The notes beneath the pieces are model-generated. The model was given only the letters and a program-made list of their open reading frames with translations. It searched no databases and had not been told where the DNA came from. A DNA stretch of 64,000 nucleotides from Yoonia vestfoldensis DSM 16212 (GTDB taxonomy: Bacteria > Pseudomonadota > Alphaproteobacteria > Rhodobacterales > Rhodobacteraceae): positions 1-64,000 of the forward strand of contig NZ_KB907991.1 of assembly GCF_000382265.1 (NCBI RefSeq). The letters run 5' to 3'. Positions 39,863-42,268 of the stretch are shown here, piece by piece; within the stretch, counting starts at the first letter, position 1, and each line of letters opens with the position of its first letter. Made by a program: the position numbers and the translations under genes.

Positions 39863-40762
39863 TCAAGTCAGTCTGTCGCCCAAGGTCAGCCCGCGCAGCA
39901 CCTCGGTCGCGAGCATGGCGCGCTTGCCTTCGCGTTGGGCGGTGGTGACCGTCACCGCCTCTGTGGCGCAGGCGATGGTGAACCCGTCCAGCACCGTGCC
40001 GGGGGCGGCATCGCCCTGCGCCACGACAGCACCCAACAGCTTGACCCGTTCGCCCGCCACATCGCACCACGCCCCCGGAAACGGCGACAGACCGTTGATC
40101 TGGCGCGCGACGGATGCTGCGGGCTGCGCCCAATCCACGCGCGCCTCGGCCTTGTCGATCTTGGCGGCATAGGTGACGCCTTCGGCGGGCTGGGGCTCCG
40201 CTGTCAGATCGGGCAGACGGCGCACCGCGTCGACGACCAGCCGCGCGCCCATCGCTGACAGCCGGTCATGCAAGGCACCCGTCGTGTCATCGGGCGCGAT
40301 GTCGGTTGCTTCGCGCAGCAGGACAGGGCCGGTGTCCAGCCCCGCCTCCATCTGCATGATGCAGATTCCGGTTTGCGCGTCGCCCGCCATGATCGCGCGG
40401 TGGATCGGGGCCGCGCCGCGCCAGCGCGGCAGAAGCGAGGCGTGGATATTCAGGCACCCCAGACGCGGCGCATCGAGCACCGCCTGCGGCAGGATCAACC
40501 CATAGGCCACGACAACCGCGATATCGGCGTTCAGGTCGGCAAACTCTGCCTGCGCCTGCGGGTTGCGCAGCGACACAGGGTGGCGGACAGGCAGGCCCAG
40601 TTCCAACGCGCGCAGATGCACCGCCTGCGGGCGGTCTTTTTTGCCACGGCCTGCGGGACGGGGTGGCTGGGTATAAACAGCGGCGATATCATGCCCTGCC
40701 GCGACCAGCGCATCCAGCACTGGAACCGAAAACTCCGGCGTTCCCATAAAGACGATGCGCAT
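39863..40762 (-). CDS. fmt: Methionyl-tRNA formyltransferase Fmt
   Basis: A 299-residue protein. [19 protein letters not shown] opens the formyltransferase domain; [20 protein letters not shown] holds the catalytic site and the C-terminal domain ([10 protein letters not shown] onward) binds tRNA. It formylates initiator Met-tRNA. It is the last gene of a def-def-def-fmt operon, 15 bases after the third deformylase. Confidence 0.95.
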
Positions 40763-40777: not shown

Positions 40778-41287
40778 TCAGATCGCGGCTTTAGCGGCGA
40801 TTTTATGTGCTTTCTTGATCAGCATATCACGGCGCACCTTGGTCATCCGATCAAAGAACATCCGCCCCGCCAGATGGTCGATCTGGTGCTGCACCGAGGT
40901 CGCCCAAAGACCGACGAAATCCCGTTCCTCAACCTCACCTACGGCGTTCAGAAACCGCACCGTCACCGCGCGGGGGCGACTGATGCGCGCCCAGACGCCG
41001 GGCAGATTGGGCGAGCCTTCCTCATGGTCACGAAATTCCACCGAACTGTGCAGGATCTCGGGGTTCGCCATGCGCACCGCCTGCCCCCGCGCAGAGGAAG
41101 CATCGACAACCGCCAAGGCCAGCCCGACGCCAAGCTGCGGCGCGGCCAAGCCGACACCGGGCATGGTATCCATCGCCACGATCATTTCATCCCACAGCGC
41201 GCGGATATCATCCGTGATCGCCGCAACAGGCTGCGCAGGGGTGCGCAACACCGGATGCGGCCAGGGCACATAAGCCCGATGCATCAT
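40778..41287 (-). CDS. Peptide deformylase paralogue lacking key catalytic residues
   Basis: A 169-residue deformylase-fold protein. Motif 1 is intact (GVGLAAPQ), but motif 2 reads EGSPNLPG instead of EGCLSIPG, so the metal-ligand cysteine is missing, and motif 3 reads QHQIDHL instead of QHEIDHL, so the catalytic glutamate is glutamine. It is predicted not to deformylate in the usual way and may be a regulatory or scaffold pseudo-enzyme. It overlaps the preceding paralogue by four bases and is followed by fmt. Confidence 0.85.
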   Translation of the reverse strand: MMHRAYVPWPHPVLRTPAQPVAAITDDIRALWDEMIVAMDTMPGVGLAAPQLGVGLALAVVDASSARGQAVRMANPEILHSSVEFRDHEEGSPNLPGVWARISRPRAVTVRFLNAVGEVEERDFVGLWATSVQHQIDHLAGRMFFDRMTKVRRDMLIKKAHKIAAKAAI

Positions 41288-41742
41288 TGCGCGACCCCAA
41301 TATCGGTGATCAGCACGCCATCCAGATGGTCATATTCATGGCAGATGCAGATCGCCTCGACCCCGTCGAACCGGCCTTGCTGCACCTCGCCCGCGATATC
41401 CTGCCAGCGCAACTCGACCCATGTCGGACGGGCGACGGCAAAGCTGCGTCCGGGAATCGACAGGCACGCCTCGACCCCCGTGGCGGTGCTGTCGGCCCGC
41501 GCGACGATCTGCGGATTGACGAAGGCTTGCGGCGTGGGGTCGCCTTCTTTCCATGTCGTGTCGATCACAAAAACGCGCTGCGACACACCCACCTGCGGCG
41601 CGGCCAACCCACGGCCGGGCGCGGCATACATGGTCGCCAGCATCTCGGCGACGAGCAGTGCCAGATCATCGTCGAAAGCCGTCACAGGGGCCGCCACGGC
41701 ACGCAGCACCGGATCGCCGTCAAACCGCAAATCCAGTGCCAT
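41284..41742 (-). CDS. def: Peptide deformylase paralogue 2
   Basis: A 152-residue deformylase. Motif 1 is GRGLAAPQ, motif 2 EACLSIPG and motif 3 CHEYDHLDG. The metal ligands (Cys, two His) and the catalytic Glu are all retained, with small departures from consensus (Gly to Ala in motif 2, Gln to Cys in motif 3). It is likely active. It sits between the canonical and degenerate copies, four bases after the former. Confidence 0.88.
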   Translation of the reverse strand: MALDLRFDGDPVLRAVAAPVTAFDDDLALLVAEMLATMYAAPGRGLAAPQVGVSQRVFVIDTTWKEGDPTPQAFVNPQIVARADSTATGVEACLSIPGRSFAVARPTWVELRWQDIAGEVQQGRFDGVEAICICHEYDHLDGVLITDIGVAQ

Positions 41743-41746
41743 GCCG

Positions 41747-42268
41747 TTACCCCCGGGCCATTTCGCGTTTCAGTTTCTGCATTTTGCGGGTGATCATCTG
41801 GCGTTTCAGCGGACCCAGATGGTCGATGAACAGCTTGCCGTCCAGATGGTCGATCTCGTGCTGCACGCAGGTCGCCCAAAGCCCGTCAAAGCGGGCGCGC
41901 TGCGGCTTGCCGTCAAGGCCCAGCCACGCCACCTCGACCTCGGCGGGCCGCGTCACTTCGGCATATTGTTCGGGGATCGACAAACAGCCCTCGTCGTAGG
42001 TGGATGTCGCCTCCGATGTCCAGACGATCTCGGGGTTGATCAGGACCATGGGTTCGGGTGTCGCCTCGGCGTCTTTCTGGCAATCCATCACGATGACGCG
42101 GCGCATCACCGCGACCTGCGGTGCCGCCAGCCCGATACCCGGCGCGTGATACATGGTTTCGAGCATGTCATCGGCCAGCCGCCGCAGGTCATCATCGATC
42201 GATGCGACGGGGGCGGTCACCTTTTTCAGGCGCGGATCGGGATGAATCAGGATGGGGCGAATACTCAT
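41747..42268 (-). CDS. def: Peptide deformylase, canonical copy
   Basis: A 173-residue deformylase with all three motifs in standard form: GIGLAAPQ, EGCLSIPE and QHEIDHLDG. The start at 42268 (MSIRPILIHPDPRL) is the usual family beginning; an upstream in-frame ATG would add an unrelated extension. It removes the formyl group from nascent proteins. First of the def-def-def-fmt operon, divergent from the patB-type gene. Confidence 0.94.
   Translation of the reverse strand: MSIRPILIHPDPRLKKVTAPVASIDDDLRRLADDMLETMYHAPGIGLAAPQVAVMRRVIVMDCQKDAEATPEPMVLINPEIVWTSEATSTYDEGCLSIPEQYAEVTRPAEVEVAWLGLDGKPQRARFDGLWATCVQHEIDHLDGKLFIDHLGPLKRQMITRKMQKLKREMARG

Follow-up and report, generated by a model that had tools for sequence, protein, structure and literature searches.

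In peptide deformylase (PDF), the general base is Glu133, and the formyl oxygen is held by the backbone NH of Leu91; residue numbers such as Cys90, Leu91, Ser92, Cys129 and Glu133 follow E. coli PDF unless the numbering of another protein is indicated. According to excerpts of two studies, the alpha3 C-terminal helix of E. coli PDF, a type 1B enzyme, binds at uL22 (PMC9099147; PMC5591237). For the Salmonella enzyme, the passages at hand report that Cys90 binds the metal and is required for activity, that a C90S copy did not rescue zinc-stressed cells, and that Ser at the second Cys (Cys130) led to the loss of about half of the activity (PMC7683392). Type 3 PDFs, which include accessory proteins of S. 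aureus and S. pneumoniae as well as archaeal and trypanosomatid proteins, are described in parts of two papers as having crucial motif residues substituted, with weak or no activity expected (PMC5591237, PMC12690207); those of S. aureus and S. pneumoniae occur beside an active PDF. In Rhodobacterales, excerpts of the survey by Lamberioux et al. (2025) give clustered PDF genes for 98.1% of species and three such genes for 62.5%, and call the rationale of these clusters elusive (PMC12690207).

We identified a cluster of the same kind in the window, by which we mean the whole 64,000-nucleotide stretch of Yoonia vestfoldensis DNA that was analysed. Three PDF genes, here termed A, B and C, lie head-to-tail upstream of fmt on the minus strand (42268-40778) and are transcribed in the order PDF-A, PDF-B, PDF-C, fmt. 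The first gene of the cluster, PDF-A (41747..42268, minus strand, 173 aa), encodes a canonical type 1B peptide deformylase with the motifs GIGLAAPQ, EGCLS and QHEIDH and a basic C-terminal helix. PDF-B (41284..41742, minus strand, 152 aa) is an accessory PDF with GRGLAAPQ, EACLS and CHEYDH; its ligands and Glu133 are intact, the changed letters of its motifs not being metal ligands; it lacks a C-terminal helix, and its Ile44 position is occupied by Arg. PDF-C (40778..41287, minus strand, 169 aa), with GVGLAAPQ, EGSPN and QHQIDH, is a catalytically rewritten PDF and a predicted pseudo-enzyme. The downstream fmt gene, in the same orientation (39863..40762, minus strand), encodes methionyl-tRNA formyltransferase (TIGR00460, 289.5 bits against a cut-off of 201.5). 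Three tandem PDFs with these EGCLS/QHEIDH, EACLS/CHEYDH and EGSPN/QHQIDH motifs had been described in an earlier note made from the letters of this DNA, and the motifs are exact in the open reading frames. The genes are closely packed: A and B are separated by 4 nt, the start of PDF-C overlaps the stop of PDF-B by 4 nt (ATGA), and 15 nt lie between C and fmt. All three proteins pass the PF01327 cut-off of 22.8 bits (A 180.5, B 156.5 and C 122.5), and a search of the genome gave no further PF01327 matches. None of the three had a PADLOC defence match. A gene for a PatB-type C-S lyase (TIGR04350; 42336-43538) starts divergently just upstream of PDF-A.

The substitutions in C were tallied over 176 distinct sequences from 196 copies in the window's family, taken to be Rhodobacteraceae; 25 loci outside the family were excluded, the tally does not include a further 25 genus loci, and an earlier tally counted 146 C. 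ORFs of at least 60 aa were sorted by profiles of classes A, B and C, with a margin of C over the next class of at least 68 bits. Motif I of PDF-C, GVGLAAPQ (41135..41158, minus strand), fits the pattern GxGxAAxQ and retains the Gln50 equivalent, which is Gln in 176/176. In motif II, Ser92-Pro93-Asn94 in the numbering of PDF-C (41006..41014, minus strand) replace Cys90-Leu91-Ser92: the Cys90 position is Ser in 175/176, Pro in 1/176 (L245:1483-1986) and Cys in 0/176, the Leu91 position is Pro in 176/176, and the Ser92 position is Asn in 167/176 and Cys in 9/176. Motif III, QHQIDH (40874..40891, minus strand), keeps both His and has Gln135 in place of Glu133, with His134, Gln135 and His138 each present in 176/176; the Cys129 position is Ser in 175/176 and Pro in 1/176. 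Unchanged in all 176 sequences are His132, His136, Gln50, Glu88 and Arg102, and Asp135 is found in 175. The consensus of the rewritten family is E(A/G)SP(N/C) and HQxDH; SPN and HQ(I/V)DH occur in the C of 56/56 genomes of the window's genus, and a divergent C at L258:2441-2959 (genome G196) has HQANH. PDF-A has EGCLS and HE in 175/175 distinct family sequences. PDF-B has the Cys and HE in 93/94, the exception being a B of decayed appearance (L107:3465-3992; ENALS/QQVMDH). The changes at the Cys and the Glu of PDF-C, noticed earlier, stand; that list was incomplete, as Leu91 is also replaced by Pro, Ser92 by Asn and Cys129 by Ser. Conservation of the changed motifs in relatives, which had been suggested as a check, is borne out: the substitutions are fixed, each being shared by 167 to 176 of the 176 sequences.

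PDF-C has Ser at both Cys positions studied in Salmonella PDF, whose Cys130 we take to be E. coli Cys129. Gln at the Glu133 position and Pro, which has no NH, at the Leu91 position would remove both the general base and the NH that holds the formyl oxygen. Because departures from the PDF motifs do not always mean inactivity, according to passages of the 2025 survey (PMC12690207), we infer the loss of hydrolysis from these residues, and we do so strongly: PDF-C very probably no longer hydrolyses N-formyl groups.

PDF-C was found in 56/56 searched genomes of the window's genus and, by best E-value, in 146/149 genomes of the order, the other three (G618, G649 and G092) showing a single PDF. In the family, sampled at one genome per genus, it was present in 212/246 genomes at E <= 1e-60. 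The 34 genomes below this strict cut-off, G196 having been placed among them by comparison of two genome lists, comprise 28 with one PDF, three with none found and three with two; of the last, two (G004 and G196) carry a divergent C, and in the stretch read for G123 there are A and B but no C. After the doubtful cases had been read, C was counted as present in 214 and absent from 32 of the 246 family genera. In a class sample of 289 genomes, the five inside the family gave C matches of at least 272 bits. None of the 284 genomes outside it gave a match scoring like C (best 162.8 bits), and the best 25 loci among them all have canonical motifs. In a phylum sample, 23/299 genomes passed 1e-47, all of the window's family. 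The named records closest to PDF-C are from Yoonia and Loktanella. We rejected a mobile origin of C, as the 56 phage records that match are all below 60% identity; of 14 matching plasmid records, one (a 1.58-Mb Pseudorhodobacter record) reaches 66.7% and 13 are below 60%.

The order A-(B)-C-fmt is found in 30/30 genus loci and 72/80 named loci; of the other eight named loci, six have no fmt in the stretch and two have a different order. PDF-B is the copy most often absent in relatives, being missing in 29/80 named loci. With start codons guessed, C overlaps the upstream PDF gene by 4 nt in 129/193 loci and lies within 50 nt of it in 96%; across 171 loci, C and fmt are a median of 18 nt apart, the gap being at most 50 nt in 63% and more than 50 nt in 37%. 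In 29/30 single-PDF loci, fmt lies beside PDF-A and there is no C.

In a quick tree of 100 sampled rows, C formed a clade of 28 rows (SH-aLRT 100) and B one of 24 (99); there was no support for where C belongs with respect to A or to PDFs from beyond the family. One loop of PDF-A is three residues longer than in PDF-C, a hint that C did not arise late by copying of A. When presence of C was mapped on a tree built from A and a portion of Fmt (99 rows, of which 70 have C, 17 lack it and 12 lie outside), the label 'without C' needed ten changes, four of them forced by starred branches. Repeated loss of PDF-C is likely, though less certain for the early branches of this tree. PDF-C is absent from 32/246 family genera, probably through several losses, and so is dispensable in some backgrounds.

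Selection was assessed in the 53 of 56 genus genomes with all three genes (1378 pairs); three in which A or B was absent from the stretch were left out. For pairs with pS <0.6, the median dN/dS of A was 0.094 (193 pairs), that of B 0.240 (96) and that of C 0.130 (104); over the 34 pairs with pS <0.6 for all three genes, the values were 0.049, 0.135 and 0.065, respectively. dN was lower in C than in B in 1368/1378 pairs and lower in C than in A in 63/1378. The 29/56 genus genomes with C most like the window's, a choice that favours C, gave 0.086 for A, 0.233 for B and 0.104 for C, and thus the same order A < C < B. PDF-C is under purifying selection, looser than on A and clearly tighter than on B. 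In two of the 56 genus rows the C match contains one stop and extends to query residue 167 or 168; these stops are probably natural ends, because an open frame with both motifs is present in all 56 genomes. The random decay with stops in close relatives that the earlier note had named as a refutation was therefore not seen, and its view of PDF-C as a likely pseudo-enzyme is well supported by changes fixed family-wide, the open frame in the whole genus sample and purifying selection. We rejected decay as an explanation of PDF-C on account of the fixed motifs and purifying selection, and an artefact on account of its presence in every genus genome. PDF-C probably serves a purpose other than cleavage.

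An AlphaFold2 model built for C from 43 aligned sequences had a mean pLDDT of 94.3 and a pTM of 0.89, with a C-terminal helix at residues 150-167, and its best structure match was E. coli Fe-PDF 1xen (Z 25.7, rmsd 1.4, 165 residues). All 50 matches listed by two structure searches were PDFs. We confidently predict a full PDF fold. Conservation in C is 0.928 in the pocket and 0.732 in the rest; the contrast is stronger in both A (0.969 versus 0.728) and B (0.847 versus 0.562). As the pocket is conserved in A and B too, this shows that the C pocket is in use and does not tell what kind of use. Nine sites have one residue in at least 90% of A and another in at least 90% of C, and five of these are among the 21 pocket positions of 163 (Fisher p 0.002, partly circular since the pocket list includes the motifs). 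In most C, the Ile86 position is His or aromatic, and the Cys129 position is Ser; with the pocket changed at these sites, formyl-Met may not be the ligand of C.

The C-terminal basic helix of PDF-C (residues 150-167; 40787..40840, minus strand) corresponds to alpha3, the helix by which E. coli PDF binds uL22. The tail after motif III has a median net charge of +7 in A (175 sequences), +6 in C (146) and 0 in B (94). The C tail is shorter than that of A (median 15 versus 20 residues) and less conserved (0.71 versus 0.87). Retention of a ribosome-type helix in C fits a ribosomal role, one of the two roles suggested in the earlier note, which also named regulation of the active copies as a possibility. 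We suggest that functions have been split among the copies, with A predicted to combine chemistry and helix, B to have the chemistry without the helix, and C the helix without the chemistry.

PDF-C thus resembles type 1B PDFs, both E. coli Def and PDF-A, in its PF01327 domain and fold, motif I, both metal His, the C-terminal basic helix and the fmt neighbourhood. It differs in the Cys of motif II and the Glu of motif III (HExxH), the C clade being fixed for Cys90 to Ser, Leu91 to Pro, Ser92 to Asn or Cys, Cys129 to Ser and Glu133 to Gln. The substitution of crucial motif residues is shared with type 3 PDFs as described in the excerpts cited above, and the occurrence beside an active PDF with those of S. 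aureus and S. pneumoniae. Unlike those proteins, with which it was compared by motifs and C-terminus, C has a conserved C-terminal helix and a def-fmt cluster across the family; its tail is not of the variable length of type 3 PDFs, spanning 14-16 residues (10th-90th percentile, 146 C). The Rhodobacterales clusters of the 2025 survey are of the same kind as A-B-C, and the copies are not told apart in the excerpts of that paper, whereas here C is a fixed, rewritten copy and B is often missing (PMC12690207).

We tentatively propose, with slightly less than even confidence, that PDF-C is a maintained, non-hydrolysing, family-specific PDF paralogue, which would sit at the tunnel exit and there hold formyl-Met N-termini or compete for them. 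The protein retains the fold, both metal-binding His, Gln50 and the larger part of the pocket, with the catalytic residues replaced. Like A, it would dock at uL22 and the tunnel exit by its retained helix, and it would sample emerging formyl-Met N-termini, or something close to them, without cleavage. Docking on the ribosome and formyl-Met sampling are predictions of moderate strength. PDF-C might then compete with or delay PDF-A, or hand chains on, so that the timing of nascent-chain deformylation and of transfer to Met-aminopeptidase or SRP would be shaped by C. PDF-B, with intact catalytic residues and no ribosome helix, would be its complement. In a further version of this idea, which we consider distinctly unlikely, PDF-C would be a dedicated formyl-Met reader that marks or shields undeformylated chains, and so a candidate bacterial fMet/N-recognin, or else a brake on the deformylation of selected proteins, for example membrane proteins, which would retain their formyl group. 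The identity of the bacterial fMet/N-recognin is given as an open question in a passage of a 2026 review (PMC13234167), and PDF-C is a candidate by its anatomy only.

Alternatively, PDF-C may be a regulatory partner subunit of PDF-A (or Fmt) that alters stability, metal loading or activity, as in other enzyme/pseudo-enzyme pairs. The genes favour such an assembly, as C adjoins A, B and fmt and mostly overlaps the upstream PDF gene, and residues peculiar to C are present outside the pocket (Trp32 in 174/176 and Met42 in 176/176), consistent with a partner role. However, PDFs are usually monomers, C is found with or without B, which is thus no obligate partner, and a partner or scaffold would leave unexplained the invariance of His132, His136, Gln50, Glu88 and Arg102; on balance we regard this explanation as unlikely. 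A comparison is offered by TldE, which has no catalytic motif. TldD and TldE are two homologues that act as a heterodimer, according to an excerpt of one study (PMC5810440), whereas a physical pairing of PDF-A and C would be hypothetical.

The invariance of the remaining active-site residues would be explained if PDF-C had a chemistry of its own, in which the two His, Ser92, Asn/Cys94, Gln135 and the His or aromatic residue 88 (PDF-C numbering) form a rewired metal or acid-base site for another formylated or acylated substrate. The restriction of position 94 to Asn or Cys points the same way, as does the suggestion, in passages of the 2025 survey, that altered PDFs may use other metals under stress (PMC12690207). 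We consider this rather improbable, since the ligand Cys, the general-base Glu and the backbone NH are all lost together, and since the one C with Pro at the Cys90 position (L245) is otherwise intact in appearance, suggesting that the Ser is not strictly needed.

It is very unlikely that PDF-C is simply an active deformylase in which the substitutions are of no consequence. PDF-C scores 119.2 bits with TIGR00079 (cut-off 103.95), and some altered type 3 PDFs are described as active (PMC12690207), but Cys90 is required in the Salmonella enzyme (PMC7683392), and the EGCLS and HE found in every distinct A are changed in every distinct C. It is scarcely credible that PDF-C is a dead relic whose reading frame is kept only for translational coupling of fmt: its place directly before fmt with a mostly short gap and the divergent, possibly decaying HQANH copy of G196 could be read in this way, but protein-level selection and the fixed residues contradict it, as do the single-PDF loci in which fmt sits beside A without any C.

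The same TIGR00079 match would give PDF-C the NCBIfam name of plain peptide deformylase, and automatic annotation would label it an active deformylase; for the rewritten copy this name is likely an over-annotation across the family.

Among the literature matches listed, none described an inactive Rhodobacterales PDF; only PMC12690207 treats the cluster, without mention of the rewritten copy in its excerpts, and the excerpt of PMC3024229 only cites Bacillus deformylases. The matches listed held nothing usable on essentiality. As far as literature searches show, it is new that a PDF next to fmt appears to be a fixed pseudo-enzyme with E(A/G)SP(N/C) and HQxDH, that, of the two accessory copies, C is the conserved one and B is frequently absent, and that chemistry and ribosome helix seem to be divided between B and C. 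An essential, antibiotic-targeted enzyme has a twin in most sampled genera of a bacterial family, in which the same catalytic residues were replaced and then fixed and which retains the ribosome helix and a good part of the substrate site. PDF-C offers part of a reason for the elusive Rhodobacterales clusters of the 2025 survey, and a means of asking directly whether bacteria read the N-terminal formyl mark as well as remove it.

The two other copies also have distinctive residues. In PDF-B, the Arg at the Ile44 position, in the Met pocket, is present in 107/107 distinct family sequences. PDF-B is perhaps a deformylase that acts off the ribosome with another substrate preference. In PDF-A, the Arg97 position is Tyr or Phe in 204/206 family sequences. 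As an Arg97-to-Tyr change in V. cholerae Def1 led to a higher actinonin MIC, according to a passage of the 2025 survey (PMC12690207), bacteria with Tyr or Phe at this position of PDF-A may be naturally less sensitive to actinonin.
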